The notes beneath the pieces were generated by a model, which did not search any database, had not been told where the DNA came from, and saw only the letters and a program-made list of their open reading frames with translations. From assembly GCF_023571765.1 (NCBI RefSeq), contig NZ_JAMJXC010000026.1:1-53220 (forward strand): a stretch of 53,220 nt of DNA, written 5' to 3'. The stretch is from Xanthobacter aminoxidans. GTDB lineage: Bacteria > Pseudomonadota > Alphaproteobacteria > Rhizobiales > Xanthobacteraceae. Within the stretch, counting starts at the first letter, position 1. Each line of letters starts with the position of its first letter. This document shows, piece by piece, positions 9,880 through 31,250 of this stretch. A program made the translations under genes and the position numbers.

Positions 9880-10308
9880 ATGACAGCACGCATGGAACGC
9901 AACAGCGATTATTTCGGCATCGAAGTTCCCTTCATGCGGCACATTGGCCTCGAGCCGGTATCGATGGGTCCAGACATCTGCTCGACTCGTCTGCCGCTCA
10001 ATACAGAAACTGTAAACAGCAGAGGCGTAGTCCACGGCGGCGCATTAATGAGCGTCCTTGACTTCACACTAAGTGCTGCGGCGCGGAGCCACGCTCCGCT
10101 CAATTACAGCGTCGTGACAATCGATTTGGCAACCCATTTCCTCAATGAAGCCAAATCCGAACTATGGATCGAGGGACGCTGTATCCGGCGGGGGAGGTCG
10201 ATTGTTTTCTGTGAGGGCGATGTGCGCGACCGGGATGGCCAGCTTGTCACTATCGCGCGAGGCGTCTTCAAGCTGCTTGATATCGATCGCGGCCACCGTG
10301 GCCGATAG
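9880..10308 (+). CDS. PaaI-type hotdog-fold thioesterase
   Basis: A 142-residue hotdog protein with the PaaI-family signature GVVHGGALMSVLDFTLSAAA (near residues 48-67) and the central strand YSVVTIDLATHFLNEAK. Such enzymes hydrolyse acyl- or phenylacetyl-CoA thioesters in the cytoplasm and recycle CoA when a pathway stalls. It begins 43 bases after the dehydrogenase gene. Family Asp or Glu catalytic positions are plausible (the Asp in SVLDFTLS) but cannot be assigned with certainty. It probably clears dead-end CoA esters or releases the product acid. Confidence 0.82.
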   Translation: MTARMERNSDYFGIEVPFMRHIGLEPVSMGPDICSTRLPLNTETVNSRGVVHGGALMSVLDFTLSAAARSHAPLNYSVVTIDLATHFLNEAKSELWIEGRCIRRGRSIVFCEGDVRDRDGQLVTIARGVFKLLDIDRGHRGR

Positions 10309-10429
10309 CGGAGTTGCATGATTGTTCTTGCTCCGACGGTCTCGCGGGAGAAAAACCGCCTTCGCTTCGATTCAGCCAACAAGCCAATCTTCACTTCCTG
10401 CCGGGATAAAGCCGAGAGAGAATGTAATT

Positions 10430-12023: not shown

Positions 12024-12404
12024 GAGACTTCTCTGATGGGGTTGATTTGGTCAAGCGTAACCGTCGTCTTCAGGCCAAGTGGCCAAATGCATGCTGCGTT
12101 GAGTAGCCGGTGAAAGTCGCGACGAGCCTCGGCGCGTCCGGGGAAACCATCTGGGTCCAGCTCAAGGGTGTTCGCGAAGACCGGCACCCATCGCCAGGCG
12201 GGATTGGTGCGCCTGCTTGCTGGCACGTCGCGGATCGGTGGCAGTAAGACCAGAGATTCTGAGGCCTCGTTCGGCAGGAGTCGCTCCAACCGTTGCAGCG
12301 GAGAGGGACCGCGCCGGAGCTGTGCCCGGCGAACCATGATCGACGCCGCTCGGCGGCCGGGGCCGGCAGGAGCTTTCCGCGTCACCTACCTGCCGCCCCT
12401 GATG
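12024..12404. other. Gene-poor stretch between SDR and IS66 remnant
   Basis: No convincing complete gene. A minus-strand frame at about 12030-12190 reads [20 protein letters not shown] and looks protein-like, but I recognise no family and it may be a decayed fragment or chance in high-GC DNA. The left end of the IS66 element probably lies here, although no terminal repeat could be fixed. Confidence 0.3.
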
Positions 12405-12602
12405 ACAAGAGGGGATTCGAGCGCAGGATTTGTTCCGGCTGTGATCGTGCCGGAGATCGCGGCAGCGACCGGCCCGCTGACGGCGGACGGCAGCGGCCGG
12501 ATCGAGATCGTGATGGCGAACGGGCGGCGTGTGATCGTGAACCGAGATGTCGACGTCGAGGCTCTGCTCCGGATCGTGCAAGCGCTGGAGCGGCTTGCGT
12601 GA
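12405..12602 (+). pseudogene. tnpA: IS66-family tnpA, 5'-truncated
   Basis: The frame ends with [20 protein letters not shown] and then [15 protein letters not shown], the standard C-terminus of IS66 TnpA. TnpA also has an N-terminal helix-turn-helix; no such sequence is visible upstream of about 12405 in any frame, so the gene has lost its start. Its stop overlaps the tnpB start by four bases (GTGA), the normal translational coupling in these elements. Confidence 0.6.
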
Positions 12603-12946
12603 TCCCGGTTCCGACGGGCGTCCGGGTCTGGCTGGCGACGGGTTACACGGATATGCGCCGGGGCTTCCCGGGCCTGTCGCTGCAGGTGCAGGAAGTGCTT
12701 CGCCGGGATCCGCTGAGCGGGCATCTGTTCTGCTTTCGGGGGCGCCGTGGCGATCTTTTGAAGGTGATCTGGCATGACGGCCAGGGCGTCTGTCTGTTCA
12801 CGAAGCGGCTGGAACGGGGCCGGTTCCTGTGGCCGAGCCCGGCGGACGGAGCGGTGACGATCTCGACGGCACAACTCGGCTATCTTCTGTCCGGAATCGA
12901 TTGGCGCAATCCTCAGGAAACGTGGCGGCCGACCCGGGTCGGCTAG
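12599..12946 (+). CDS. tnpB: IS66-family accessory protein TnpB
   Basis: A complete 115-residue TnpB starting at GTG 12599 ([20 protein letters not shown]) and ending [17 protein letters not shown]. It has [18 protein letters not shown] and TKRLERGRF. The length is normal for the family. The start codon overlaps the tnpA stop. It is needed for IS66 transposition but is not the transposase itself, and its neighbours tnpA and tnpC are both broken, so the element is probably immobile. It is a different copy from the fragment at 207-461. Confidence 0.88.
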
Positions 12947-12991
12947 CATTTACCTTTTGAAATCGCGAGTAAAATCTGATTCACTGGCGTT

Positions 12992-13832
12992 ATGATGGTG
13001 AAGGCTGACGATCTTCCTTCAGACCTCGCAAGTGCCCTGGCGGCGCTGCCGACCTGCGCCGCCGGCGGCGGTCTATTACGCCTCGGGCGACCGACGCGGA
13101 GAGCACCCGCAGAAGCATCTGGCCGGGTTCGCCGGCATCCTTCAGTGCGACTTTTACGGTGGCTTCGAGCCGCTGTTCGATCCGCAGCGGAAGGAACAAC
13201 CGATCACGCCGGCCTTTTGCTTTGCTCATGCGCGGCGTGGCTTCTTCGAGCTGGCCGATATCGCGAAAAAGACTCGTGACGGCAAGAAGGGCAAACCGGT
13301 CTCCCCGATCGCCTTGGAGGCGGTCAGGCGCCTCGACGCGTTGTTCGAGATCGAGCGCTCCATCAACGGGCGCAACGCCGACGAGCGGCGGGCTGTGCGC
13401 CAGGAGAAGAGCAAACCGCTTCTCGACGACATGCAGGCCTGGCTGCTCCGCGAACGCGAAACCCTCTCGCGCTCCGCCGAGGTCCTGAAGCCGGTCAACT
13501 ACATGCTCAGGCGCTGGGCCGACTTCGCCCGCTTCCTCGAGGATGGCAGGATCTGCCTCAGCAACAACGCCGCCGAAAGAGCGCTGCGGGGCATCGCCCT
13601 GGGACGGCGGAACTGGACCTTTGCCGGCTCCCAGCGTGGCGCCGATCGCGCCGCCGTCATGCTCACCCTCATCGCCACGGCCCGCCTCAACGATGTCGAT
13701 CCGAAAGCCTGGCTCGCCGATATCCTGGCCCGCATCGCCGATCTTCCCGCATCGCGTCTGCACGAACTGCTGCCCTGGGAATGGAAGCATCTGCGAGAGG
13801 CCGACAAGCCCGCCGATCAGCAGGCCGCCTGA
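12992..13832 (+). pseudogene. tnpC: IS66-family transposase tnpC with internal deletion
   Basis: ATG 12992 opens MMVKADDLPSDLASALAAL, the usual TnpC N-terminus, but after about 19 codons the sequence jumps to the C-terminal half in another frame. That half begins APPAAVYYASGDRRGEHPQ and continues through GGFEPLFD, HARRGFFELADIA, the conserved LSNNAAERALRGIALGRRNW and a normal C-terminus (stop at 13832). The deleted part (roughly 230 residues) contains much of the DDE domain. The protein cannot be an active transposase. The right end of the element probably follows within 13833-13910. Confidence 0.75.
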
Positions 13833-15308: not shown

Positions 15309-16196
15309 TCACCGCAGCAGGACGGGGCGCACCGGGGCGGCTGTTGCCCCTCGGAAACGCGGGGCGAGCATGGCAAAGCAGGACACAAACAGCCCGGCCT
15401 GAGCCACCTTCTCAAGGGCCAGATTCTCGATCAGGTAGACGCCATGCTCCACCAGCGCCAGCTGATGCACCGGCAGCAGGAGCCCCAGGTCCGGGTTGGG
15501 CATCACCTCCACGGCCATGTTGTCCGCTCCGATCGCCACCACGCCACGGGCGATCAACCATTCGGCTGCCGCGACATCGATGCCGGGTTCGCCCTCCAGA
15601 TAGCGCGCGTTGTCGGTCTCGAAATGGCGGCCCCAGCCGGTGCGGATCATGGCGACGTCGCCCGGCTCCACGGTGAAGCCGCCGCGCGCCGCCGCGCGCT
15701 CCAGGTCGTCGACGCTCACCACCTCGCCCGCGGCGAGGCCGTTTGCACCGCCCACGTCAAAGAGAATGCCGCGCGTCACCATGGGCGGGATGTGTTCGGC
15801 GCCGAGCGTCTCCAGCCCCCAACTGGTCACCTCCTCCTCGGCATCTCGCCCGCCGAACATGCGCGCGCCCACCGAGGCATGCCCCAGCGCATCCACATGG
15901 GTGCCCACGTGCATGGTCATCTCGACGCGCTCGAGGTTGGTCCCGACCTCGTTGCGCACACCGGCCTTGCGGCGACGACTGATGGTGTCGCGCCAACTGG
16001 CGAACATGGACATGAGGAAGGGCGTTTGGTTCGGCCGCATCATCGGCGCGCCGTAATAGATGTCGTGGCTAATGTCGTGGATGCCGCCCTCGCGGACGAG
16101 AGACAGCGCCGCGAGTGTCTTCTGGGGCGTCAGGTGTATCCCGGCGCCGTGCTCCTTGCGGAAATCCCACTGGGAATGGCAGTGGCAACACTCCAT
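15309..16196 (-). CDS. Cyclase-family metal-dependent hydrolase (kynurenine-formamidase-like)
   Basis: A 295-residue protein of the cyclase/arylformamidase family (PF04199 type) with the metal-binding motif HVGTHVDALGH near residue 115. A second conserved region reads GDVAMIRTGWGRHF. The C-terminal part includes GADNMAVEVMPNPD and HQLALVEHGVYLIENLAL, both typical. Family members hydrolyse amide or lactone bonds (for example N-formylkynurenine, isatin) with a divalent metal. ATG 16196 is preceded by GGAGAGGAA. The Cys/His-rich N-terminus (MECCHCHSQW) is unusual for the family and could bind a metal. It is the last gene of the minus-strand cluster, 45 bases after the sulfurtransferase gene. Confidence 0.85.
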   Translation of the reverse strand: MECCHCHSQWDFRKEHGAGIHLTPQKTLAALSLVREGGIHDISHDIYYGAPMMRPNQTPFLMSMFASWRDTISRRRKAGVRNEVGTNLERVEMTMHVGTHVDALGHASVGARMFGGRDAEEEVTSWGLETLGAEHIPPMVTRGILFDVGGANGLAAGEVVSVDDLERAAARGGFTVEPGDVAMIRTGWGRHFETDNARYLEGEPGIDVAAAEWLIARGVVAIGADNMAVEVMPNPDLGLLLPVHQLALVEHGVYLIENLALEKVAQAGLFVSCFAMLAPRFRGATAAPVRPVLLR

Positions 16197-16241
16197 ATGC
16201 GTTTCCTCTCCTGGCCCGGCCGCGATCATCAATTCCCCTCG

Positions 16242-17123
16242 TCACGCTTCGCCGGTGACCATCGGGCGCGAAGGATCCGCGGACCAGTCGGTCAGCGAGC
16301 CGTCATAGAGCGCCGCGTCGCTACGACCGATCAGATGCAAAGCGAACGTGATGCCGCTGGCGGCGATGCCGCCGCCGCAATAGCTGATGATCCGCGGGCG
16401 TTCGAGAACGCCCGCGGAGGCGAAGATGCAGCGAATCTCCTCCGCGCTGCGAAACCATGACGTCCCACGACGCAGCAGATCCCGGAAAGGCACGCTCACG
16501 CTGCCCGGAATGCGGCCCGGGCGGCCGTAATGCGCGCCGCCGCGCCCCGAGAACTGCTCCGGCGAGAGCGCGTTCACCAGAGCCCCGCGCGGATCATTCA
16601 TCGTGGCTGCGACCTCCTGGGCGTCGGCCCTCAGGCTGGGGCGCAGGCGGGCGGTGAAGGTTCCAGGCACCGGCTCGGGTCCGGCGTCGGCGGTCAGCGG
16701 CAGGCCAGCCTCGCGCCATCCCTCCAGACCGCCATCCAGCACACGCACGTCGTGCGCGCCGGAGGCGGTGAGCACCCACCATGTCCGGACCACGGGCCCG
16801 AGATAGCCGCTGCCATAAAGCACGATGGTGTCGCCATCGTTCACGCCATGGGCGCGCATGGCATGCGTGACGTGCTCCATCGCCGGAAGGCCGTAGGGCA
16901 CGGTTCCCTGCGGCGCTGACAGCTCGTGGAACATGGAAAGATAGCGGGCGCCGGGGACATGTTCGCGCTCCCAGTCCGAGCGACCGCTGACGAGCCGCGA
17001 GCGGCCGACTGGCTGGGGCAGCATCTCGGCGCTGCAGTCGAAGATCCGGAGGCCGGGGGCGCCCAGATGGGTGGCGAGCCATTCGCGGGTGCACAGGATG
17101 GATGGTTCCGCGCGTATTGGCAT
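16242..17123 (-). CDS. Sulfurtransferase, two rhodanese domains (SseA-like)
   Basis: A 293-residue tandem-rhodanese protein. The N-terminal domain (about 1-140) has IFDCSAEM and the RVLDGGLEGWREAGLPL stretch. The C-terminal domain carries the active-site Cys in YCGGGIAASG near residue 250, followed by ALYDGSLTDWS. This class transfers sulfane sulfur from thiosulfate or 3-mercaptopyruvate to an acceptor. The loop CGGGIAAS differs from the CG[ST]GVTA loop typical of 3-mercaptopyruvate sulfurtransferases, so the donor is uncertain. Its start overlaps the LivF-like stop (TGATG), showing tight coupling to an importer. A paralogue lies at 24991-25872. Confidence 0.85.
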   Translation of the reverse strand: MPIRAEPSILCTREWLATHLGAPGLRIFDCSAEMLPQPVGRSRLVSGRSDWEREHVPGARYLSMFHELSAPQGTVPYGLPAMEHVTHAMRAHGVNDGDTIVLYGSGYLGPVVRTWWVLTASGAHDVRVLDGGLEGWREAGLPLTADAGPEPVPGTFTARLRPSLRADAQEVAATMNDPRGALVNALSPEQFSGRGGAHYGRPGRIPGSVSVPFRDLLRRGTSWFRSAEEIRCIFASAGVLERPRIISYCGGGIAASGITFALHLIGRSDAALYDGSLTDWSADPSRPMVTGEA

Positions 17124-17875
17124 CAGACCGGGGGAGGGCTGGCGGCGAGGGATTCCAGCGCCAGCGGGTCGTCGCCCAGGTAGGCGCGCTTCAGATCCGC
17201 GTCGGCCAGGAGTTCCGCGGCCGGCGCGGAACGCACCAGCCGGCCGCTTTCCAGCACATGCCCGGTTTTCGAAAGCGACAGGGCCAGATGCGAATTCTGC
17301 TCCACCAGCAGCACCGTCACCCCGGTGGCGGCGATGCGGCGGATGGCGTTGGCCATCACATGAATCACCGCCGGAGCGAGACCGAGAGAGGGCTCGTCCA
17401 GCAGCAGCAGACGGGGGCGCGCCATCACCGCCCGGCCGATGGCCGCCATCTGCTGCTCGCCCCCGGAGAGGTTGCGGCCCAGGCTGTTGCGCCGTTCGGC
17501 GAGGCGGGGGAACAGCGCATACACCTTGTCGAGATCGGCCCGCACACCCGTCTGGTCGCGCCGCAGATAGGCGCCGCAGACAAGGTTGTCGTGGACGCTC
17601 ATCTCCGGGAACAGCCGCCGTCCCTCGGGGGACAGGGCGATGCCATCCCGGATCCGCTGCTCGGTGGGCAGGTTCTCGATCGCCCGCCCGTCGATCAGGA
17701 TGCGTCCGGCGTGGAGCGGCACCAGGCCGGCGATGCCGCGCATGATGGTGGACTTGCCGGCACCGTTGGCTCCCAGGATCGCGGCCACCGTACCGGATTC
17801 GACGGTGAGCGAGACCCCGAGCACTGCCGCAATGGCGCCGTGCCGGATCGAGACCTCCTGGAGTTCAAGCCGCAT
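17123..17875 (-). CDS. livF: Branched-chain-type ABC importer ATPase (LivF-like, system 1)
   Basis: A 250-residue ATPase with Walker A GANGAGKST near residue 35, LSPEGRRLFPEMSVHDNL (the LivF hallmark), signature LSGGEQQM and Walker B LLLLDEPSLGLAP. It pairs with the LivG-like ATPase, whose gene overlaps it by 11 bases, to energise uptake through LivH/LivM. Homologous systems import branched-chain amino acids, amides, urea and, in many Alphaproteobacteria, aromatic or other carboxylic acids. The name reflects family, not proven substrate. The tail after DDPLALESLA is not conserved. Confidence 0.9.
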   Translation of the reverse strand: MRLELQEVSIRHGAIAAVLGVSLTVESGTVAAILGANGAGKSTIMRGIAGLVPLHAGRILIDGRAIENLPTEQRIRDGIALSPEGRRLFPEMSVHDNLVCGAYLRRDQTGVRADLDKVYALFPRLAERRNSLGRNLSGGEQQMAAIGRAVMARPRLLLLDEPSLGLAPAVIHVMANAIRRIAATGVTVLLVEQNSHLALSLSKTGHVLESGRLVRSAPAAELLADADLKRAYLGDDPLALESLAASPPPV

Positions 17876-18641
17876 CCGCGGCCCTCCCCAGATAGGCTTC
17901 GATGAATTCCGGCGTCTGGCGGACCTGCGCGGGCGTCCCGTCTGCGATCAGGCGCCCCTGCGACAGCGCGATGATGCGGTCGCACAGCCGCATCACCATC
18001 GGCAGGTCGTGCTCGATCAGCACCAGCGCGATGCCGCGGGTGTCATGCACGGCGCGGAACAGGGCTTCCATCCGCGCCGTCTCGGCCCCGTTGAGGCCGG
18101 CGGCGGGCTCGTCCGCCAGCAGCATCCGGGGGCGCGTCGCGATCGCCATGGCGACGCCGAGGATCTTCTGCAAGCCGTACGGCAGCGTGGAGGCCACGTC
18201 CTCCGCATTCTCGCCGAGGCCGGTGAAAGCCAGCACATCCTCGGCGGTCGCGCGTGCCTCCTCGCGCGCGCCGCGCAGGCGCCGGCCGGCGAACAGCGCC
18301 ATCGGCGTGCCGATGCCATGGAAGAGCACGGCCTGCTCCAGATGCTGGCGCACGGTCATGTCCGGCAGCACCATCGCGGCCTGGAAACTGCGCACCAGTC
18401 CTGCCTTGGCGATGCGGGCGGGCGTCCAGCCGGAAATGTCGTGGCCATCGAAATGGATCGAGCCGGAGCCTGCGGGCAAACCGCCGGTGATGAGGTTGAA
18501 GAGTGTCGTCTTGCCCGCCCCGTTGGGGCCGATCAGCCCGGTGATGCGCCCCGGATCCACCGCGAACGACACCCCCTCCACCGCCCGGATGCCGCCGAAG
18601 CTACGCGAGACGTTGCGGACCTGCAGTTGCGCCGCGCTCAT
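17865..18641 (-). CDS. livG: Branched-chain-type ABC importer ATPase (LivG-like, system 1)
   Basis: A 258-residue ATPase with Walker A GPNGAGKTT near residue 36 and the LivG-type ARIAKAGLVRSFQAAMVLPD. It also has an unusual signature region (TLPYGLQKILGVAMA) and Walker B MLLADEPAAGLN. The signature lacks the usual LSGGQ and reads LPYGLQK, as in many LivG proteins of this subfamily. Its start overlaps the LivM-like stop by four bases. The C-terminal FIEAYLGRAADAA is the standard LivG ending. Confidence 0.9.
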   Translation of the reverse strand: MSAAQLQVRNVSRSFGGIRAVEGVSFAVDPGRITGLIGPNGAGKTTLFNLITGGLPAGSGSIHFDGHDISGWTPARIAKAGLVRSFQAAMVLPDMTVRQHLEQAVLFHGIGTPMALFAGRRLRGAREEARATAEDVLAFTGLGENAEDVASTLPYGLQKILGVAMAIATRPRMLLADEPAAGLNGAETARMEALFRAVHDTRGIALVLIEHDLPMVMRLCDRIIALSQGRLIADGTPAQVRQTPEFIEAYLGRAADAA

Positions 18642-19558
18642 TTCAGCCTCCGCGCGAGACCCGCCAGCCCCTGCGGTAGGAAGACCATGAGCAGCAGCAG
18701 GGAGACGCCATAAAGGAATTGCTGCCAGCCGAGCGCCGTGCGGAAGAGTTCGGGAAGCGGCACCAGCAGCAGGGCGCCCGCCAGGGGACCAAGGATGGCC
18801 CCGACCCCGCCGACAACATTCATCACCAGCGCATTGATGGTGGCGGTGACGTTGAAGGCCTCGGGCGAGATGTAGCCCATATAGTGGGCATAGAGACTGC
18901 CCGAGGCACCAGCGATGCCGGCGCTGACAGTGAAGACGAAGCGGCGCCAGGCCAGGGCTTCGATACCCAGCGACTGGACCAGCGGCTCATTGCGCTCCAG
19001 CCCGCGCAGCACCTGGCCCGGCTGGCCGGACAGCATCGCACGCACCACCAGCAGCGCCACGGCCGTCGTGACCAGCACCAGCACGTAGAAGCTCTCCCGG
19101 CTGCGGAGGGTGAACCCCAGGATGGCGGCAGGAGGGATGCGCATGATCCCGTTATTGCCGCCGAAGGGAAAGACGAACTCCACGAACACCAGCACGATGG
19201 CCTCGCCGAGCACGAAGGTGAGGAGGGCAAAATTCACGCCGCGGACCTTCAGGATGACGGAGCCGATCAGCCAGGCCGCGAGAGCGGGGATGGCTATGCC
19301 CGCGCTCATTCCCAGGAGGAAGGGCGTGCCCACGTCCCGCGTCAGAAGGGCGGAGGCATAGGCGCCCATGCCCATGAAGCCCGCCTGGGCCAGCGACAGC
19401 TGGCCGATGCGAAGCATCAGGTGCAGGCTCAGTGCCAGCAGCGACTTGATGCCGATGAGGATCGCGATGTGCCAGACGAAGCGGCCATCCACGGCAAAGG
19501 GCACGAGGACGACCCCGGCCGCGATCGCGGCCAGGACAATCCGGGAAGGGCGCATCAC
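18638..19558 (-). CDS. livM: Branched-chain-type ABC importer permease (LivM-like, system 1)
   Basis: A 306-residue inner-membrane protein with about eight hydrophobic segments. Markers are LSLAQAGFMGMGAYASALL (LivM N-terminal motif), RVRGVNFALLTFVLGEA-like sequence in the middle and NVVGGVGAILGPLAGALLLV near residue 250. It overlaps the LivH-like gene upstream and the LivG-like gene downstream by four bases each, so the three are translationally coupled. Length and topology are normal. Confidence 0.9.
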   Translation of the reverse strand: MMRPSRIVLAAIAAGVVLVPFAVDGRFVWHIAILIGIKSLLALSLHLMLRIGQLSLAQAGFMGMGAYASALLTRDVGTPFLLGMSAGIAIPALAAWLIGSVILKVRGVNFALLTFVLGEAIVLVFVEFVFPFGGNNGIMRIPPAAILGFTLRSRESFYVLVLVTTAVALLVVRAMLSGQPGQVLRGLERNEPLVQSLGIEALAWRRFVFTVSAGIAGASGSLYAHYMGYISPEAFNVTATINALVMNVVGGVGAILGPLAGALLLVPLPELFRTALGWQQFLYGVSLLLLMVFLPQGLAGLARRLK

Positions 19559-20403
19559 GATCTCCCCAGGAGGCCTGCCGGCCGCACCAGCAGGACAAGG
19601 ATCACGGCCGCGAAGGACACCAGGGCGGCGATGGTCGCGTTGAAGAGAATGGAGATGCCGGAATCAATCGTGGCCAGCAGGCACGAGGCCACTAACGCGC
19701 CGGGGATGGAGCCGAGCCCGCCGAGCACGACGATGATGAAGGCCTTCATCAGTGCCGCCTCGCCCATGTTGGGCTCCGCGCCATAGATCGGCGCCACCAG
19801 CGCCCCCGCCAAGCCGGCCAGCGCGCATCCGATGCCGAACGCCACCGGATACGTCTTCCAGGGCGTGATGCCTTGCAGTCGCGCCACCTCGGGCGCCTGC
19901 GCCACAGCCCGCATGGCCAGCCCGAGCCGGGAATGATTGAGGAGCCACCAGATGAGGGCCACCATCACCAGCGCCACGCCCGCGGCAAACAGCTGGTCGC
20001 GCGGAATGAACGCCCCCGCGACCTCGATCGAGCCGGAAAACGGCCGTGCGATGGGCTGGCTGTCGACGCCGAACAGGATGGTGACGGCGCCCTTGATGGC
20101 GATGGCCAAAGCCAGCCCCACGATCATGCCGCCGGTCTCATCGCCGGTGAAGCGCCGGAACAGCGCGCGCTCTGCGACGACGCCGATGCCGCCGGCCACC
20201 AGCGCCGCCAAAGGCAGGGCGACCAGATAGTCGAGGCCGAACTGGTGCTGGGCCACGAAGACCGCGTAGGCCCCGATCAGCAGGAACTCGCCATGCGCGA
20301 AGTTGACCACGCGCATGATCCCGAAGATCAGCGTGAAGCCAAGGGCGATCAACATGTAGGTCGCCGACGAAAGGCCGGCGACCACGAGAAACTGCTGAAA
20401 CAT
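19555..20403 (-). CDS. livH: Branched-chain-type ABC importer permease (LivH-like, system 1)
   Basis: A 282-residue inner-membrane permease. Typical LivH elements are TLIFGIMRVVNFAHGEFLLI near residue 25, GLAMRAVAQAPEVARLQGI in the cytoplasmic loop, and VVLGGLGSIPGALVASCLLA near residue 225. It follows the binding-protein gene by 20 bases. It forms the translocation pore with the LivM-like subunit. Confidence 0.9.
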   Translation of the reverse strand: MFQQFLVVAGLSSATYMLIALGFTLIFGIMRVVNFAHGEFLLIGAYAVFVAQHQFGLDYLVALPLAALVAGGIGVVAERALFRRFTGDETGGMIVGLALAIAIKGAVTILFGVDSQPIARPFSGSIEVAGAFIPRDQLFAAGVALVMVALIWWLLNHSRLGLAMRAVAQAPEVARLQGITPWKTYPVAFGIGCALAGLAGALVAPIYGAEPNMGEAALMKAFIIVVLGGLGSIPGALVASCLLATIDSGISILFNATIAALVSFAAVILVLLVRPAGLLGRS

Positions 20404-20423
20404 GACCTGTATGATCCGCCCGC

Positions 20424-21596
20424 TCAGTCCGGCTTGGCCTCGCCGATGACGACACCCTTGCCGTTCTGAATCTCGACCATCACGACGGCGCGGTAGATCT
20501 GGTGATCCACGCTGTAGGCCGCCTTGCCACCCCAGGTCAGCGGCCCCACCGAGCCCTGGAACGGGGTGTTGGCCTCAAGGGCCGCGACCACGGCGTCACT
20601 CTTGGTGGAGCCGGCCTTCTGCAAGGACGAGAAGAGCAGGTTGGCCGCGTCGTAGAACATGACCACGTAGTCGTTCATCTCGGTCTTGTGCAGCGTGCCG
20701 AAGCGCGCGCCGAGGCGGTTCCATGTGTCGGTGCCGGGGGCGGCCATGGTGGTGCCCACCACGCCCTGCGCATATTCGGGGCCGGCCGCCTTCACGATCT
20801 CCTCGACGTCATAGCCGCCGAACTTTGTGAAGCTGCCCTTGTATCCCTGCTCGCGCGCCTGACGGATGATGAGGCCCGCGGTGCGCGGCGGTGCGGTGTC
20901 GAGCTCGATGGTGTCCGGATTCTGCGCGAGGACCTTGGTCAGAAGGGCGCGGAAGTCGTTCTGGCTGCGCTCGAAGAATTCCGCCGCGACCACATCGAAT
21001 CCGCCCTTCGTGTACGCCGCCTTCTGGATCTTCTGGCTGTTCCAGCCGGTCTCGTCATTGGCGGCGACCAAAGCGACGCGCTGCAGGTTCGGCCTGTTCT
21101 TTTTCAGCCAGGCAACGGTGGAGGGCGAGAATTCCTGCGTGGTCGGGCCGACGCGGAAGATATACTTGCTGTCCTTCAGCACATCCGCCGCCCACGCCCC
21201 GGTGAACAACAGCACGCCCTCGCGCTCGGTCAGCGGCTTGATGGCGAGGAGCGAGGCCGAGCCGATGGGGCCGAAGACAAAGCGCACATCGTCGGGGCCG
21301 ATCAGCCGGTTGATCGCCGTGACCGCCTCTGCAGCCTTGTACTGGTCGTCGTAGGAAATGACCTCGAGCTTGTAGCTGGTGGCGCCGACCTTGAGGCCGC
21401 CTCGCGCATTCACCTCCTCCGCGGCGATCTTGACCCCGCCGTCCATGCCAAGTCCCCAGGCGGCGCCGGGGCCGGTCAGCGGGCCGAGGACGCCGATGCG
21501 CAGCACCTCCTGCGCCTGGGCAAGACCCGCGGAAAGCGCGAGCAGCGAAGCGGCCATCGCCGCCAGCGCGATCCTGCGGTTGAACATGGCAGACAT
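20424..21596 (-). CDS. livK: Branched-chain-type ABC importer binding protein (LivK-like, system 1)
   Basis: A 390-residue exported binding protein. The signal peptide is about residues 1-28 (RRIALAAMAASLLAL ... AQA-Q). The mature fold begins EVLRIGVLGPLTGPGAAWGL, with YDDQYKAAEAVTAINRLI and FVFGPIGSASLLAIKPL typical of Leu/Ile/Val-binding-protein relatives. ATG 21596 is chosen because the signal peptide starts there and GGAGACC precedes it. A longer frame from 21656 would bury the signal. Ligand cannot be inferred; the ligand-pocket positions do not point to one amino acid. Confidence 0.9.
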   Translation of the reverse strand: MSAMFNRRIALAAMAASLLALSAGLAQAQEVLRIGVLGPLTGPGAAWGLGMDGGVKIAAEEVNARGGLKVGATSYKLEVISYDDQYKAAEAVTAINRLIGPDDVRFVFGPIGSASLLAIKPLTEREGVLLFTGAWAADVLKDSKYIFRVGPTTQEFSPSTVAWLKKNRPNLQRVALVAANDETGWNSQKIQKAAYTKGGFDVVAAEFFERSQNDFRALLTKVLAQNPDTIELDTAPPRTAGLIIRQAREQGYKGSFTKFGGYDVEEIVKAAGPEYAQGVVGTTMAAPGTDTWNRLGARFGTLHKTEMNDYVVMFYDAANLLFSSLQKAGSTKSDAVVAALEANTPFQGSVGPLTWGGKAAYSVDHQIYRAVVMVEIQNGKGVVIGEAKPD

Positions 21597-21749
21597 GGAT
21601 CCGGTCTCCTTGTGCGACGGCTGCTTTGCGCGCCGCCCTCGATGGTGATGGCCCACAAAACCCAGGCCGCGTTTATTGTCAATTATCTTTATCGAAAAAA
21701 TTAAATAATTGCTCCAAGTCTGGCTATCGCTTTGTCCAAGATCATCTTT
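21597..21749 (-). promoter_or_regulatory. AT-rich gap, probable promoter of the LivK-like gene
   Basis: This 153-base gap lies between the GMC oxidoreductase stop and the importer start and is markedly AT-rich in otherwise GC-rich DNA (about 21677-21720). On the minus strand it contains TTGACA (21682-21677), but no good matching -10 element is visible. TTGGAG (from 21717) with GATAAT further along is an alternative. The gap suggests that the importer can be transcribed separately from the oxidoreductase. Confidence 0.3.
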
Positions 21750-23267
21750 TCAGTTTTTGGCGAGAAATCGCGCCGCTACATTCTCGGCCCAGGCCCCAAT
21801 GCTAAGGGTGGGCGGCGCCGCTGTCGGGCGGGGAAAGGCGGCGGCATCCACCACATGCAGGCCGGGCACGCCGTGGACCTCGCCATCGGCGCCCACCACG
21901 CCGACGGCTTCCAGGCGGCCCAGGCACGCCCCTCCCATGGGATGGACGGTCGAGGGTCGACGGCCGGCATAGACGGGGCGCCCGGAGAGGCGCGCCATCT
22001 CCTGCATGACCTCGTAGATGCGGCCGTAGATGGGGCTGTTCGCCGGATCGAAATCGATACGGAAGCGCCCGCCCGCAATGCTGGCGGTCCCGTCCATGGC
22101 ATCCTCACCCATACCGCTCACGACCATGCCGCGCTTGAGGCGCTGGCGGACGAAGCGCGGGAAGGGATAGGCGTCGACGCTCGGCATGTTGTTGCGGCCG
22201 ATGCCCACCTGCGGCCGGGATTCGTCGCGCAGGCGGATCGCCCCCTTGCTGGGAATGCCTTCGGTGTAGTCCGTATCGGGGGTATTGAGGTCCCAGAAGC
22301 CGCGGATGTCGCCATTGCCGCTGAATCGCCGGCCGAGATGCGGCATGCCCCGGAGGCCACCGTGCACGTCCCGGCTCTGCAGCAGCAGCCGCAGCGTGTT
22401 CATCGTGCCCGCGCCGAGGAAGACGTGGTCCGCCTCGATGGCCGATCGCCGGCGGGCGGCGTGGTCCACATAGTCGATGCGAAACCTGCGGGCCGCGCCG
22501 GGTTGCGCGATGATCGCCACCACTTCGCTGAGCGGGCGGACATCCAGCCCATGCCGGAGCGCCGGTCCGAGATAGATGAAGTCCATGGTGGACTTCGAGC
22601 CCGATGGCGCGCCGAGGAAGCCATGGTCGCCGCTGCCGTAGTCGGTCTCCCAGCGGCTGATGCCCGCCTCGGTCGTCACCAATTGCGGGTTCGCAGGGTC
22701 GCGGGGAAACAGGAAGCCGACCCGCACCTCGTCCTTCGGGACGACCGGCGCGAAGTGCGGATGATCGCCATAAAGCTTGAGCGCGCCATGCGGAGGGGTG
22801 TTGGACAGGCCGGGCCTTGCCGAGCCGACCCTGGCCAGGAATGCGGCGTAGTGGGGCGCCATTGTCGCCTCGTCCAGGCCGTCGCAATGACCGTCCCAGA
22901 AATCGGGCCGCGCGGGACGCCGATGCAGGGCGGAATAGACGTGGCTCCCCCCGCCGACGCCGGAGGAGCAGATGACCTCCATGCCGCGCGAGACATAGAC
23001 CTCGAGCAGGCCCTTGCGGCTGATCCGCAGGCTGCCGCCCGGCAGCAGCGGATGGTGTACCGCGCGCAGCGCCCGCCGGAACAGGCTCAGGCCGCGTGGA
23101 AACGCAGTCCGGTTCGCGATGCCCATGGAGCGCACGGGCACCGTGTCCCACCAGGGACCGCGTTCGAGGACGGTGACCTTCGCCCCGCCCTCCGCCAGTC
23201 GCGCCGCCGAGACACTGCCGCCGAAGCCGCTCCCTATGACGACCACCTCGGTGGCATCCGCCGCCAT
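21750..23267 (-). CDS. GMC-type flavin oxidoreductase (cholesterol-oxidase-like)
   Basis: A 505-residue FAD enzyme. The dinucleotide motif VIGSGFGGSVSAARLAEGG is at about residues 10-28. GVGGGSHVYSALHRRP (the FAD-contact loop) follows near residue 105. The C-terminal HPMGGACLGRLEA and GLHVVDAAAFPRPTAAPPT carry the conserved His and Pro/Asn region of the GMC active site. The overall pattern is closer to the bacterial cholesterol-oxidase/ChoD branch than to choline dehydrogenase, but many such proteins act on other alcohols. ATG 23267 has a strong GGAGGGGGAG site. It is the first gene of the minus-strand cluster, divergent from a LysR gene, and may catalyse the first oxidation. Confidence 0.85.
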   Translation of the reverse strand: MAADATEVVVIGSGFGGSVSAARLAEGGAKVTVLERGPWWDTVPVRSMGIANRTAFPRGLSLFRRALRAVHHPLLPGGSLRISRKGLLEVYVSRGMEVICSSGVGGGSHVYSALHRRPARPDFWDGHCDGLDEATMAPHYAAFLARVGSARPGLSNTPPHGALKLYGDHPHFAPVVPKDEVRVGFLFPRDPANPQLVTTEAGISRWETDYGSGDHGFLGAPSGSKSTMDFIYLGPALRHGLDVRPLSEVVAIIAQPGAARRFRIDYVDHAARRRSAIEADHVFLGAGTMNTLRLLLQSRDVHGGLRGMPHLGRRFSGNGDIRGFWDLNTPDTDYTEGIPSKGAIRLRDESRPQVGIGRNNMPSVDAYPFPRFVRQRLKRGMVVSGMGEDAMDGTASIAGGRFRIDFDPANSPIYGRIYEVMQEMARLSGRPVYAGRRPSTVHPMGGACLGRLEAVGVVGADGEVHGVPGLHVVDAAAFPRPTAAPPTLSIGAWAENVAARFLAKN

Positions 23268-23364
23268 AACTCCCCCTCCGGACCCGTTTCCTCCCGCGCG
23301 CGCCGGGCCACGGCAGCTGTCGAGTGACGCGGGAAGTTTGACAAACCGCCAGCCCAAATGTCCA

Positions 23365-23386
23365 ATGCATTGCAGCCGCATTGCAT
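23365..23386. promoter_or_regulatory. Imperfect dyad in the GMC / LysR intergenic region
   Basis: ATGCATTGCAG (23365-23375) faces CCGCATTGCAT (23376-23386); nine of the eleven base pairs match. It lies just upstream of the chosen LysR start (23408) and about 100 bases upstream of the GMC start. That is a plausible position for LysR autoregulation and divergent activation. Confidence 0.4.
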
Positions 23387-23407
23387 AAGATAATGTTATG
23401 GCCGAAG

Positions 23408-24331
23408 ATGAGAATTAACCCGCGCCAGGTGGAAGCGTTTCGCCTGGTTTTCCAGACCGGCAGCATGACCACCGCGGCGCAGATGATGGGCATCACGCAG
23501 CCCGCCGTGAGCCGGCTGATCCGCGACCTCGAGGCGACCCTGGAATTGGCCCTGTTCATCCGCAGCGGCAGCGGCATCAGCGCCACGACCGACGCGATTA
23601 CGTTCTTCACGGAGGTCGAGCGCAGCTTCGTCGGTCTTCAGCAACTGGAGCATGCGGCGCTGGCGATCCGCCAGAAGCGGGAAGGCCTGCTGCACGTTGC
23701 CGCCACCGGTGCGTTCGGGGTTCTCTGCCTGCCGCGCGCCCTTGCGGCCGTGCGCGAGGCGCGCCCTGGACTGCGCGTGCGCCTCACCGTGACACGTTCG
23801 TCGGAAATCCTGGACATGGTGGCGACGCGGCGCTGCCACCTCGGCATCACCGCCATCCCTCCGCAGACCGCAGGCATCGATCACGAGAACCTGCCCGCGG
23901 TCCCCATCGTCTGCCTGCTCCCGCCCGGCCATCCCCTCGTCGCGCGGCGCGAGCTACGCCCGCGCGACCTCGTCGGGGAGATCATCTATGGGCCACCGGA
24001 AAACACCCGCCTCCACCAGCAGATCGCCCAGGCCTTCGAGCAGGACGGTGTGGGCTATGATCTCGCCGGAGAATGCACGCTCGGCAACTCCATCTGCGCG
24101 TTCGTGGCCTTGGGCGCCGGCGTCGCCATCCTCGATGCGCTGGCTGCGCGCGGTGCGGTGGAGCCCCCCATCATCTTGCGCCCCTTCGTGCCGCATCTGC
24201 GATGGGAGCCGAAATTGCTCTTCCCGGCGGGCAGCCCTCGCTCGCAGCCGCTCGCGATGCTCATTCGCGAAATCCGGGCCCGCCTCGCCGACCTTGCCGC
24301 TTCGTCGCCGGAAGGCATTGTCTGGCGCTGA
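23408..24331 (+). CDS. LysR-family transcriptional regulator (region 4)
   Basis: A 307-residue LysR protein. The winged helix-turn-helix is at about residues 1-62 (NPRQVEAFRLVFQTGSMTTA and then ITQPAVSRLIRDLE). An effector-binding domain of two subdomains follows (LHVAATGAFGVLCLPRALAA, then GIDHENLPAVPIVCLLPPGH). ATG 23408 is chosen because family homology begins there. In-frame TTG 23381 and ATG 23393 would add up to nine residues, and none has a good ribosome site. It is divergent from the GMC gene and is the likely ligand-dependent regulator of the region 4 cluster. Confidence 0.88.
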   Translation: MRINPRQVEAFRLVFQTGSMTTAAQMMGITQPAVSRLIRDLEATLELALFIRSGSGISATTDAITFFTEVERSFVGLQQLEHAALAIRQKREGLLHVAATGAFGVLCLPRALAAVREARPGLRVRLTVTRSSEILDMVATRRCHLGITAIPPQTAGIDHENLPAVPIVCLLPPGHPLVARRELRPRDLVGEIIYGPPENTRLHQQIAQAFEQDGVGYDLAGECTLGNSICAFVALGAGVAILDALAARGAVEPPIILRPFVPHLRWEPKLLFPAGSPRSQPLAMLIREIRARLADLAASSPEGIVWR

Positions 24332-24341
24332 AGGGAGGACC

Positions 24342-24680
24342 TCAGCGGGGGGAAGGCTCGGGCAAAGGCTCGCTGGCGCCGTTTACGCGCAACTCGTCGG
24401 CCTCATTGTCGACGACGACGTAATTCTCATAATAAGTGACCGTCGGGCGGGCGCCAAACCGCGCCTCTACCTTCTTTGCCCAGTCTTCGTTGTACCAAGC
24501 CTCGGCCTGCTCGCGCGTCTCCCAAAGGTAAACGCCGCCGCCGCCCGCATCTCCGTTAAGGAAATACTTGCGCTTCAGGCCGTCGAGCCCGGCATAGAGC
24601 GGAGCCGAGAGCCGTGCCGATGCGGTGGCCTCTTCCGCGCTGCGCTGGAGGCCCGGAATCTGCACGATCGCGATCAGCAT
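24342..24680 (-). CDS. YdhR-family (putative monooxygenase-fold) small protein
   Basis: A 112-residue dimeric alpha/beta-barrel protein. It resembles the YdhR family: MLIAIVQIPG start, the central LDGLKRKYFLNGDAGGGGVY (near residues 35-55), YLWETREQAEAWYNEDWAKK, then RFGARPTVTYYENYVVVDN. YdhR-type proteins are annotated as putative monooxygenases, although enzyme activity is not established for most. ATG 24680 has a modest AAGGAAAG site. It converges with LysR, ending 10 bases from it. It may act on a flavin-oxidised intermediate of the cluster, which is inference. Confidence 0.8.
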   Translation of the reverse strand: MLIAIVQIPGLQRSAEEATASARLSAPLYAGLDGLKRKYFLNGDAGGGGVYLWETREQAEAWYNEDWAKKVEARFGARPTVTYYENYVVVDNEADELRVNGASEPLPEPSPR

Positions 24681-24990
24681 GGACGCTTTCCTTCTTTGCA
24701 TGCCCGCGCATTTCCCCGCCCGCGCACGCGGCTGTCAAATCTCAATTCCTGATGCCTGATGCCGGCATGTTATGCACCAAGAATTGTATGGACTTAGTGG
24801 GGCGTGCGCGCTGGTCTTGGGGGCGGCCCACAGTAGAATTGAGCGAGATGTTGACGTCTTGGGCCGCGTCTTTGCGGGCGCGACGCGGTGGCGGGCCGTT
24901 GCGGAGGCGACGGCCGTCGTCCCGGGGCATCGGACGCGTGTTCCAGGTTCCGTGGCCCGTTGCCAATCTGGCTGGTTGGCTGGCCGTACT
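24681..24990. other. 310-base stretch without a convincing gene
   Basis: This stretch lies between the YdhR-like gene and the second sulfurtransferase gene. It should contain the promoter of the YdhR-like gene near 24700-24800 (AT-rich patch with TTGTATGG). Short frames on both strands are Arg-rich and look like GC-driven chance frames. No IS end or RNA gene is seen. Confidence 0.4.
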
Positions 24991-25872
24991 TCAGTCCCTG
25001 CCGGTCTTGAGGGGGCGTGTCGAATCCGCGGTCCACTCGGCAAGCGATCCGTCATATTCGAGCGTATTCTCGTAGCCGATGACAGAGAGTGCGAGCGCCC
25101 CCAGCGCGGATGCAACGCCGCCCCCGCAATAGGTCACCACCAGCTCTCCGTCGAGGGCGGTGCGGGCCTCGAACAGGCGGCGCAGCTCGTCGGCCGGGCG
25201 CAGGGTGTTGTCGGTGTCGTCCACCAGCTGCGTGAACGGGAGGTTCGTGCTGCCGGGAATATGGCCCGGCCGCGCCCGCCCCGACACGCGTCCGGAAAAA
25301 TCGTCCTCCTGCAGCAGGCAGACCAGCCGGCCCGAGCGCCGGCCCTCGACGATGTCGAGCACATCGCGGGTGGTGGCCGCGGTGGGTGCCGGGAGCGGGA
25401 GCGTGTAGTTCGCCCTGGCATAGGGCGAGAGGCCGTTTTCCATGGGGCGACCCTCGGCGCGGTACTTGCGCAGGCCGCCGTCGAGCACGCTCACGCGTGG
25501 ATGCCCGTAAGAGCGGAAGACCCACCACAGGCGGGCTGCCCATTGGTTGGCAAGATCGTCATAGATGACCACGTGCGAGGTTCGCGAGATGCCGAGCCGG
25601 CTGGCCGCCGTTGCGAACTGGGCCGCCGTGGGACGGGTGAACGGGAAGGGCGCCGTGGGATTGGAGAATTGCGTGAACAGGTCGGCAAATCGCGCCCCCG
25701 GAATGTGCCCGCGCCGTTCGTAATCGTCGAGCCCGCTCCGGAACTCGGCACGTGTTCCGTCCGCCCGCGCAGGCTCCAGGTAGACGCTGGCCTCGAGAAC
25801 GATCAGATCGTCATCGCCCAGATGTTCTCCAAGCCACTGCGTGGAGACGAGAGATTGAGCGGCAGGCATCAT
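24991..25872 (-). CDS. Sulfurtransferase, two rhodanese domains (second copy)
   Basis: A 293-residue tandem-rhodanese protein, paralogous to 16242-17123 but clearly diverged. The N-terminal domain has HIPGARFADLFTQF, VIYDDLANQWAARLWWVFRS and VSVLDGGLRKYRAEG. The C-terminal domain has GHIPGSTNLPF and the active-site loop YCGGGVASALG near residue 255, then EYDGSLAEWTADSTRP. The loop is nearly the same as in the first copy (CGGGxAS), suggesting similar chemistry. ATG 25872 (or 25869) is chosen; no strong ribosome site is visible. It is divergent from a small HTH gene, with a dyad between them. Confidence 0.85.
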   Translation of the reverse strand: MMPAAQSLVSTQWLGEHLGDDDLIVLEASVYLEPARADGTRAEFRSGLDDYERRGHIPGARFADLFTQFSNPTAPFPFTRPTAAQFATAASRLGISRTSHVVIYDDLANQWAARLWWVFRSYGHPRVSVLDGGLRKYRAEGRPMENGLSPYARANYTLPLPAPTAATTRDVLDIVEGRRSGRLVCLLQEDDFSGRVSGRARPGHIPGSTNLPFTQLVDDTDNTLRPADELRRLFEARTALDGELVVTYCGGGVASALGALALSVIGYENTLEYDGSLAEWTADSTRPLKTGRD

Positions 25873-25932
25873 GAGAATCCGGTTCGGGATGGGCGGCAGG
25901 GCCAAAGCCGGCTTGCTTCCGCGTCGGGCTCG

Positions 25933-26617: not shown

Positions 26618-27682
26618 TCAAGAAAACAGCGCGTTGAACAGGAAACCCACTGCGAGGATGCCGGCGCCGACCACGCTCACGAACACGGCAATCAGCTTCA
26701 GGCTCAAGACTTTGCGCAGGATGATCATTTCCGGCAGCGACAAGGCGATCACCGCCATCATGAAGGCGAGCACGGTGCCCAGCGCCGCGCCCTTGGCCAG
26801 CAGAGCCTCCACCACCGGGATGATGCCCGCGGCATTGGAATACATGGGAATGCCCAGCAGGACCGCGGCCGGCACCGACCACCACGCATCCCGCCCCATG
26901 ATGGAGGCGAGGAGGTCCGCCGGGACATAGCCGTGGATGAAGGCGCCCGCCGCGATGCCGGCGATGATCCACATCCAGACCTTGCCGACAATGTCGCGCA
27001 CGGCCTCAAGGCCGGCCTTGATGCGATCCACCAGCGTCATGCCGTTCGGCGGCAGATCGACGGGAGCCGCGCGCACGTTGCGCACCCAGTCTTCCAGCCA
27101 GCCTTCCAGGTGCAGCCGGCCGATGACCCAGCCGGCAACGATGGCCACCCCAAGGCCGAAGGCCAGGTAGGTGAGCGCCACCTTCCAGCCCACGAGCGCG
27201 AACAGCAGGCCCAGAGCCACCTCGTTGACCATGGGCGCAGAGATGAGGAAGGAGAAGGTGACGCCGAGGGGCACCCCGGCGGAGACGAAACCGACGAACA
27301 GGGGCACCGCCGAGCAGGAGCAGAAGGGCGTGACGATGCCGAGACCGGCGGCGGCGACATTGCCGAGCCCCTCGCGCCGTCCGGCGAGCAGCGCACGCGT
27401 GCGCTCGGCGGAGAAGAAGCTGCGCACCACGCCCATGGCGAACACCACCAGCGTCAGCAGCATCAGCACCTTGGGCGTATCGTAGATGAAGAACGCGACC
27501 GCTTCGGCCAGATGGCTGCCGGGTTCCACCGGCAGACGGGCCACCAGCCATTGGGAGAACGGCGCGAGCTGGGCATAGACCACGAACCAGATCGCGATCG
27601 CCGCGACCGTTGCCGCCGCCCAGGCCAAAGGCGATGCCTCCCGCGGCGGCTTGCGCTCGGTCAATGACAGGTCAGCGCTCAT
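26618..27682 (-). CDS. Permease of the YraQ/ArsP (DUF318) family
   Basis: A 354-residue inner-membrane protein with about eight to ten hydrophobic segments. The hallmark CSCSAVPLFVGFVSAGVPLG (near residues 119-138) is followed by SFLISAPMVNEVAL. The second repeat has IPMYSNAAGIIPVVEALLAKG. ArsP members export trivalent organoarsenicals; YraQ relatives are of unknown function. It lies between an ArsR regulator (four-base overlap) and a CxxC thioredoxin, an arrangement typical of metalloid-resistance loci. A cytoplasmic loop (about residues 150-230) with VRNVRAAPVDLPPNGMT is normal for the family. Confidence 0.85.
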   Translation of the reverse strand: MSADLSLTERKPPREASPLAWAAATVAAIAIWFVVYAQLAPFSQWLVARLPVEPGSHLAEAVAFFIYDTPKVLMLLTLVVFAMGVVRSFFSAERTRALLAGRREGLGNVAAAGLGIVTPFCSCSAVPLFVGFVSAGVPLGVTFSFLISAPMVNEVALGLLFALVGWKVALTYLAFGLGVAIVAGWVIGRLHLEGWLEDWVRNVRAAPVDLPPNGMTLVDRIKAGLEAVRDIVGKVWMWIIAGIAAGAFIHGYVPADLLASIMGRDAWWSVPAAVLLGIPMYSNAAGIIPVVEALLAKGAALGTVLAFMMAVIALSLPEMIILRKVLSLKLIAVFVSVVGAGILAVGFLFNALFS

Positions 27683-27978
27683 GCGGCTCTCCTATCGGAC
27701 GAAGCATTCAGGCTGTTGAGAACAGCATCGACGATGGCGGCCTGCTCGGCCGGTAGTTCAGGATTGCGACGGTAGCGCACCCATTGGGCGTCCCGCCGGT
27801 CGATCACCATGCCGGCCTGCTTGAGCACCGCCATATGGCGCGACATGCGGGATTGGGTGACGCCGAGGACGCGCACAAGCTCGCATACACAATGCTCGCG
27901 CCCGTCCCACAGGAGTCGGACTGCCGCGAGGCGGGTGTGTTCAGCCAGGGCCGACAGAAGGGTGAGCGCGGAGTCCAT
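27679..27978 (-). CDS. ArsR-family metalloregulator
   Basis: A 99-residue winged-helix repressor. EHCVCELVRVLGVTQSRMSR (near residues 28-47) combines the type-I metalloid site CVC with the recognition helix. The N-terminal helix LLSALAEHTRLAAVRLLWDG is also typical. The two Cys in HCVCEL match the As(III)/Sb(III)-sensing site of ArsR. It heads the operon ArsR-permease-thioredoxin. A palindrome 25 bases upstream (28003-28020) is its probable operator. Confidence 0.9.
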   Translation of the reverse strand: MDSALTLLSALAEHTRLAAVRLLWDGREHCVCELVRVLGVTQSRMSRHMAVLKQAGMVIDRRDAQWVRYRRNPELPAEQAAIVDAVLNSLNASSDRRAA

Positions 27979-28871: not shown

Positions 28872-29636
28872 TCAGCCCCCCGACACTTCGAGCCAGCGGC
28901 CAATCTCGGCTCGTATGCGTTCGTCGGAGCGAAACGCATCAGCATCGCCTTCCATGGTCTTCTGTCCAAGCTCCAGGATGTAGACGTAGTCGGAGACCTG
29001 GATGCAGGGGCGCACGTTTTGATCCACGAGGATGACGGCAATTCCCTGACGCGCCAGTCGGGCGATGTGATCATAGACCTCGGAAGCATATTTCGGAGCG
29101 ATCATCGCTGTCGGCTCGTCGAAGAGCAGGGCCTTTGGCTCGATCAGCAACGCCCGGGCGATCTCCAGGAAGCGGCGCTGGCCGCCGCTGAGTTCGCCCG
29201 CCCGCCCATGGCGGAAGGGAGCCAGCATGGGGAAGTCGCCGAGCACTCTGTCGATGGCCCGTCGTACCCGCGCGCCATCGCGACGAACGGGCCAGCACCC
29301 GAGGATCAGGTTGTCCTCCACGGACAAGTCTAGGAAGAGGCTGCTGTTCTGGGGCACGTAGCCGACGCCGACGTGCACCATGTCGTGAGAAGGTGTTCCG
29401 AGCAAAGACCGGCCATCGAACACGATATCCCCGGCGCTGGGCTTCAAGAAGCCCAGCAGCGTCTTGAGGACGGTCGATTTGCCTGCGCCATTGGGGCCAA
29501 TGATGCCGGTAACCTCGCCGGAGCGGAAGGACAGGGTGAGATTTTTCAGAACATGGATGTCGCCGAAATAGGCGGCATACACATTGCGGAACGAGATCAG
29601 GGTCGAGTCGGGTCCAATTTGTGCCAAGGCGTTCAA
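28872..29636 (-). CDS. livF: Branched-chain-type ABC importer ATPase (LivF-like, system 2)
   Basis: A 254-residue ATPase with Walker A GPNGAGKST near residue 46, GYVPQNSSLFLDLSVEDNL (LivF-type), signature LSGGQRRF and Walker B ALLFDEPTAMIAP. It lies 13 bases after the LivG-like gene and ends system 2. It is clearly diverged from the system 1 ATPase (17123-17875), so the two importers are not recent duplicates. Confidence 0.9.
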   Translation of the reverse strand: MNALAQIGPDSTLISFRNVYAAYFGDIHVLKNLTLSFRSGEVTGIIGPNGAGKSTVLKTLLGFLKPSAGDIVFDGRSLLGTPSHDMVHVGVGYVPQNSSLFLDLSVEDNLILGCWPVRRDGARVRRAIDRVLGDFPMLAPFRHGRAGELSGGQRRFLEIARALLIEPKALLFDEPTAMIAPKYASEVYDHIARLARQGIAVILVDQNVRPCIQVSDYVYILELGQKTMEGDADAFRSDERIRAEIGRWLEVSGG

Positions 29637-29649
29637 GATAAGCTCCCGA

Positions 29650-31241: not shown

Positions 31242-31250
31242 GGGGCGCTC

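Follow-up and report, generated by a model that had tools for sequence, protein, structure and literature searches.

Two described systems are among the closest to the locus reported here. In the breakdown of phloroglucinol by Clostridium scatologenes, a Mn-dependent member of the cyclase family is a proven C-C hydrolase and the key cleaving enzyme, working with an SDR and a 3-hydroxyacyl-CoA dehydrogenase (3HCDH)-like enzyme, and its gene cluster includes a transporter and a regulator (PMC10470551). Isatin hydrolase and bacterial kynurenine formamidase, of the same fold family, carry the metal motif HxGTHxDxxxH (PMC6117287). We analyzed a 53,220-nucleotide (nt) stretch of DNA from Xanthobacter aminoxidans (contig NZ_JAMJXC010000026.1, hereafter the window) with a cluster of genes encoding a GMC flavoprotein oxidoreductase (GMC), a YdhR-like protein, a cyclase-family metal hydrolase (cyc), a tandem-rhodanese sulfurtransferase (rhoA), a Liv-type importer, and a LysR-type regulator. 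Like the phloroglucinol cluster, it combines a cyclase-family hydrolase with a transporter and a regulator, and its relative in Roseovarius dicentrarchi also has SDR and 3HCDH-like partners; unlike it, the clostridial route is anaerobic and reductive, and the available part of that paper names no GMC, YdhR, or rhodanese. The scanned genes of the window block were found to include neither an SDR nor a 3HCDH nor a beta-keto acid cleavage enzyme, and in the other cluster loci searched the Roseovarius 3HCDH gene has no ortholog and its SDR finds matches of only 23-36%. An earlier note on this DNA could match the block to no known pathway, and we likewise found no characterized pathway with this combination in the literature, as judged from listings; as far as searched, the combination is undescribed, and it is built of known families. 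We propose, with a probability of about one half, that the cluster is a catabolic module of sporadic occurrence, controlled by LysR and serving the breakdown of a single small compound that is taken up by the cell.

Recurrence and distribution of the gene set

Scanning genome contigs with the GMC protein gave nine loci (L039 to L047), six with a YdhR gene, four with a cyclase gene, three with rhoA, and two with the LysR gene. The genes ydhR, GMC, and rhoA are found in Oceanicola (L039) and, together with cyc, in Pseudooceanicola (L040). The Roseovarius dicentrarchi cluster (L041 and L108) has LysR divergent from GMC, the 3HCDH-like gene, a binding protein, LivHMGF, a glutathione S-transferase (GST), rhoA, the SDR, and cyc; its ydhR lies past a GntR gene, about 10 kb from GMC, with other cluster genes between. 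Two Albimonas loci (L042 and L046) hold cyc, GMC, and a divergent ydhR without rhoA, and in both an amidase gene lies beside GMC. Brucella thiophenivorans (L045) has genes for an alpha/beta hydrolase, a Liv importer, and ydhR plus LysR, divergent from GMC, and lacks the cyclase; this contig stops about 380 nt after GMC. Relatives differ in the order and strand of the genes and in the kind of importer; since the importer is variable, GMC and YdhR together form the stable core. The earlier note had let the block stand as a unit only if its genes co-occur in other genomes; GMC, YdhR, cyclase, and rhoA do recur together elsewhere, which supports the block as a real unit.

The GMC-YdhR pair also adjoins an aldehyde dehydrogenase gene on a Sphingobium plasmid. 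On this plasmid, pEP2 (L119), the pair occurs twice between insertion sequences (1148-2072 and 8926-10846), one GMC copy being shortened. Among plasmids, GMC matched 13 records, of which the neighborhoods of two (Sphingobium and Pseudonocardia) were inspected, and no YdhR is annotated beside the Pseudonocardia relative (32% identity); 19 plasmid records hold a YdhR relative.

No GMC ortholog was found in 13 other genomes of the same genus, where the best match has 27% identity. At a threshold of 0.001, GMC found a match in 33 of 61 genomes; leaving aside the genome of the window itself, the strongest was 8.5e-17 at 33% identity. At 1e-60, the only hit among 397 genomes of the order is the window's own genome, 385 genomes of the class give that genome and one other (44% identity), and 394 genomes of the Roseovarius family give three: two seeds and one further genome whose gene is partial, lying at the start of a contig (38%). 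In 335 genomes of the Roseovarius family, a rhoA ortholog was found in one and a cyclase ortholog in two, all of them genomes of the seed clusters; these counts refer to strict thresholds (1e-70 and 1e-80) with the best few candidates per genome scored, and leave more distant relatives uncounted. Left of GMC, genes for IS66 TnpB and a transposase occupy window positions 12293-13832 (12.4-13.9 kb for the transposase), the transposase DNA being 92.6% identical to a Xanthobacter flavus plasmid, and GC content, 57-61% up to 12 kb, climbs to 65-69% over the stretch from 12 to 28 kb. This distribution is most naturally read as sporadic spread by horizontal transfer, and the cluster is rare and apparently mobile.

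In two of the nine loci the GMC relatives (51%) adjoin genes for a biotin carboxylase, a PYC_OADA carboxylase-domain protein, and a phosphoenolpyruvate (PEP)-mutase-type protein (L043, 5330-11530; L044, 5240-11452), with open reading frames (ORFs) alike in length and order (Pfam assignments on L043 only); these neighborhoods possibly represent another pathway of the same GMC subfamily. No common theme was found around the 49-51% GMC relatives (biotin carboxylase, PEP mutase, acyl-CoA dehydrogenase, and mutase genes) or around other YdhR relatives (L111 and L112).

LysR regulator and predicted operator

LysR orthologs in Roseovarius (64%) and B. thiophenivorans (53%) are divergent from GMC as in the window, and the three GMC-LysR gaps share the blocks CATAACATT, ATTnGACATT, and TTGTCAAA, with almost constant distances between them (38 nt, then 17-18 nt). 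Scanning for this arrangement detected one further site in the B. thiophenivorans locus (21/23), upstream of ydhR, with no match in 42 shuffled sequences that kept base content only. In the 53 kb of the window, the site ranking second likewise lies upstream of ydhR (19/26; next best 17). The predicted operator is a 42-nt two-part element, and the pattern CATAACAT-N24..28-ATTNGACA has two matches in the window against 0.00 expected (100 dinucleotide shuffles), counts that refer to a strict pattern written after the sites were seen and to ydhR copies found with the motif from the GMC-LysR gap. Shortened by one base (last base free), the pattern matched only cluster sites among 120 loci, including those before GMC in Roseovarius and before both GMC and ydhR in B. 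thiophenivorans. At the Roseovarius ydhR the site scores 16/26, no better than background; the evidence there is the exact half-site CATAACATT, the only half present (0.04 expected in 13 kb), and its spacing. A near-identical copy of the element lies 94 nt upstream of the ydhR ATG in B. thiophenivorans, as in the window, and in Roseovarius its first half is 95 nt away. LysR proteins follow a T-N11-A operator rule, and operator 1 holds a dyad that fits it, CATAA-N7-TTATG at 23384-23400 (one match in the window, 0.00 expected). Clusters without this LysR (Oceanicola, Pseudooceanicola, and both Albimonas) score 16-18/26, the background level.

The predicted operator 2 before ydhR ties this gene into the regulon and leaves out rhoB, a second tandem-rhodanese gene further upstream. 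We infer from the DNA that LysR would control the genes from GMC to cyc and ydhR together; rhoB, upstream of operator 2, is not obviously under its control. The earlier note spoke of a LysR-headed block; the regulator is indeed present, but since it sits between two units rather than at the head of one, that description needs correcting. We are confident that the genes form a real co-regulated unit. What had been a loose list of neighbors becomes a predicted regulon that is defined by a minimal set of genes and by an operator open to testing. It groups a YdhR-like protein with the GMC enzyme and the metal hydrolase, and its inducer would point to a substrate degraded by scattered Alphaproteobacteria.

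Enzymes, proposed pathway, and rival explanations

The active site of cholesterol oxidase contains a catalytic His and an Asn. This enzyme is the best solved relative of GMC by sequence, and the flavin adenine dinucleotide motif and the catalytic His (at 441) are kept; unlike in cholesterol oxidase, the Asn position is a proline (Pro484, invariant in 10/10 aligned proteins), and GMC scores 67.6 bits against the curated family, far below the cut-off of 850. Cholesterol oxidation was ruled out as its role by the curated score and the active-site alignment. A structure model of GMC was of low confidence (mean pLDDT 61) and was not used. The closest solved relatives of the importer's binding protein are leucine-binding proteins. 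The YdhR-like protein falls below the Pfam PF08803 cut-off and differs from Escherichia coli YdhR (JW1657, entry 1wd6) in having only ∼10% identity to it and in sitting in a predicted catabolic regulon. To our knowledge, the role of the YdhR family is unsettled, and no catabolic role for it came up in literature searches.

The metal motif of Cyc is HVGTHVDALGH (residues 108-118), with HxGTHxDALGH invariant in 5/5 aligned sequences. Cyc shares the fold family and the motif HxGTHxDxxxH with isatin hydrolase and kynurenine formamidase (PMC6117287) and keeps the metal-site letters of their HxG[T/A]HxDxPxH, but it has Leu for their Pro and LIEN for GLQC/GLAS, and it scores 32.1 against a cut-off of 223 for curated KynB. 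LIEN lines up with I(L/I)E of kynurenine formamidase, the counterpart of the place where isatin hydrolase has GLQC/GLAS, as placed through the KynB alignment rather than one to isatin hydrolase itself; isatin hydrolase identity was ruled out by this signature. Two tandem cyclase-family genes (26-27% to Cyc) also lie away from the GMC cluster in Albimonas pacifica (L118, 6276-8367).

As predicted from the DNA, LysR would bind the two-part operator before the GMC operon and the second copy before ydhR, and GMC, importer, rhoA, cyclase, and YdhR would be induced together. The Liv-type importer would take up a small polar or carboxylated substrate, in which the GMC flavoenzyme would convert a hydroxyl to a carbonyl; YdhR might then isomerize, decarboxylate, or oxygenate the activated product, and Cyc would cleave beside the new carbonyl, either by retro-Claisen C-C cleavage of a 1,3-dicarbonyl or by opening a lactone or amide. 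RhoA would be an accessory of one sub-lineage, serving a sulfur-bearing or thiol-adduct intermediate or the handling of persulfide. The analysis shows the gene content, its co-occurrence, the predicted operator, and the sporadic distribution, whereas induction, step order, and chemistry are what we infer; carbonyl formation followed by C-C cleavage is put forward tentatively, at rather less than even odds. It is doubtful, though conceivable, that the cluster is a new horizontally spread pathway in which GMC and a YdhR-type enzyme make an activated carbonyl, the cyclase-family hydrolase cleaves it, and in one branch a rhodanese dedicated to the pathway, its substrate pocket remodeled, accepts sulfur from an intermediate; if true, the YdhR family would gain a catabolic role.

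Several observations weigh against a LysR-controlled catabolic module. The flanks of three GMC relatives with 49-51% identity (L043, L044, and L047) lack YdhR, cyclase, rhoA, and this LysR, and none of these was seen with more distant ones (L090, 38%; L091, 44%); conversely, Oceanicola (L111) and the L044 genome (L112) hold YdhR relatives (45-46%) that are not located with GMC. The importer is inconstant: Pseudooceanicola has a TRAP-type DctP gene nearby, Oceanicola by our reading has a different ABC system, and the Liv set of B. thiophenivorans shares 36-51% identity with that of the window (L047 also carries a Liv set, of low identity). Only three genomes went into the definition of the operator motif, and the window ydhR site, at 19/26, compares with chance maxima of up to 18 in other loci. 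Alcohol oxidation by GMC is itself a proposal because the Asn of cholesterol oxidase is absent, and the position of Cyc below the KynB cut-off leaves the bond it cleaves unsettled.

The earlier note saw in the two rhodaneses and the importer an organosulfur substrate whose sulfur is removed as sulfane sulfur; in this account, RhoA would act after GMC oxidation and hydrolysis of the imported compound. RhoA resembles 3-mercaptopyruvate sulfurtransferase (SseA) in having two rhodanese domains and a catalytic Cys (Cys249 in the C-terminal domain, invariant in 5/5 sequences, RhoB included), and the loop CGGGIA is kept. Because the catalytic Cys is intact, RhoA may have a role in sulfur transfer. 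In known sulfurtransferases two arginines bind mercaptopyruvate; unlike in SseA, both positions are replaced in RhoA, aligning with Gln and His, and RhoA reaches 145.5 bits against the 250 of the curated family. The gene is translationally coupled to livF and conserved at 66-70% in a sub-lineage of the GMC tree: the GMC proteins accompanied by rhoA form one side of a single branch (4 rows, one change, support 88/87, 0/500 shuffles as low). Counting the window, rhoA is present in 4/7 clusters with GMC and YdhR, and in the three that lack it (both Albimonas and B. thiophenivorans) no ortholog was found genome-wide in these draft genomes (best 34-40%). The second rhodanese gene, rhoB, occurs in 1/7 of these clusters, and no ortholog was found in related ones: searching ten genomes that carry a cluster or GMC with rhoA gave 17 tandem-rhodanese places, none of which exceeds 38% identity to RhoB. 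The genome of the window is rich in rhodanese domains, with 29 matches. RhoB was ruled out as a pathway member by this lack of orthologs and by the predicted LysR operator that sets it apart from ydhR, and the idea of two rhodaneses in one pathway falls with it. No C-S lyase, dioxygenase, or sulfite-handling gene was found among the scanned block genes. The organosulfur claim thus stays unproven, with rhoA missing from 3/7 clusters and the mercaptopyruvate arginines replaced, and we consider it unlikely: a sulfur-bearing substrate is possible in the rhoA sub-lineage, but the evidence does not point to one for the entire module. In R. dicentrarchi the GST gene overlaps rhoA by 4 nt (L041, 17307-18817), which speaks for a sulfur-bearing substrate and hints at a glutathione-linked step. 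A thiophene link suggested by the name Brucella thiophenivorans was rejected, as that cluster lacks rhoA and cyclase and the genome has no ortholog of either (contig end as above); literature listings for the species gave nothing on these genes.

In a sulfur-free route, GMC would oxidize an alcohol, either primary or cyclic, and the hydrolase would open a lactone, a lactam, or an N-acyl bond, while the part of RhoA would be limited to Fe-S cluster repair or protection against oxidative stress. Such a route would fit the formamidase-like LIEN of Cyc, the amidase genes of Albimonas, the alpha/beta hydrolase that B. thiophenivorans has without a cyclase, and the aldehyde dehydrogenase gene of Sphingobium; it leaves YdhR and the conserved rhoA unexplained, and we hold it to be improbable. 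Cyanide detoxification is within the reach of rhodaneses, and hydroxynitrile lyases occur among plant GMC proteins; a GMC of that type might free cyanide from a cyanohydrin for conversion to thiocyanate by RhoA. This is very unlikely given that GMC resembles cholesterol oxidase among solved structures, that no hydroxynitrile lyase stands among 60 of the 62 matches, and that rhoA is absent from three of the seven clusters. The variable order, strand, and importer type among relatives might suggest a chance neighborhood of unrelated genes; recurrence in several genera, the finding of rhoA and cyclase orthologs in no sampled genome without a cluster, and the predicted operator that relatives share make this scarcely credible.

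Layout and neighboring genes

All genes named for the block in the earlier note were located, and its list is correct (Table 1). The minus-strand operon is compact and runs GMC, binding protein, LivH, LivM, LivG, LivF, rhoA, cyc, with 4-nt overlaps at livH/livM and livM/livG and an 11-nt overlap at livG/livF. The overlap reported between a sulfurtransferase gene and the importer ATPase gene is borne out by a single shared base between the livF stop and the rhoA start (TGATG). The LysR gene is head to head with GMC, and ydhR and rhoB follow beyond it, again on the minus strand, rhoB 310 nt further upstream of ydhR. The true start of the Liv binding protein is probably near codon 21 of the annotated frame. 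The profile scans took in mechanical ORFs that are not genes, such as 23396-23932.

Table 1. Genes and predicted operators of the cluster, in window coordinates
Feature	Position	Strand	Remarks
cyc, cyclase-family (PF04199) metal hydrolase	15309..16232	-	orthologs 54-74% in L040, L041, L042, L046
rhoA, tandem-rhodanese sulfurtransferase	16242..17123	-	orthologs 66-70% in L039, L040, L041
LivF-type ABC ATPase	17123..17875	-	76% ortholog in L041
LivG-type ABC ATPase	17865..18641	-	75% ortholog in L041
LivM-type permease	18638..19558	-	72% ortholog in L041
LivH-type permease	19555..20403	-	83% ortholog in L041
Liv-type periplasmic binding protein (Peripla_BP_6)	20424..21656	-	75% ortholog in L041
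GMC flavoprotein oxidoreductase	21750..23267	-	module anchor; ATG at 23267
Predicted LysR operator 1, CATAACAT-N26-ATTNGACA	23359..23400	-	upstream of GMC operon and lysR
LysR-type regulator	23408..24331	+	start inferred; in-frame ATG also at 23393
YdhR-like dimeric alpha+beta barrel protein	24345..24680	-	orthologs in 6/9 GMC loci
Predicted LysR operator 2	24733..24774	-	94 nt upstream of ydhR ATG
rhoB, second tandem rhodanese	24991..25905	-	neighbor, judged outside module

Upstream of rhoB and on the same strand, window positions 26618-27978 encode an ArsP_1-type permease and an ArsR-type helix-turn-helix protein, and rhoB may belong with these genes rather than with the GMC module. Further along, at 28872-37036, a second Liv-type importer (ATPase, two permeases, and binding protein) is followed by genes for an SMP-30/gluconolactonase-type protein, a GST, and a LysR regulator, likely another catabolic block.

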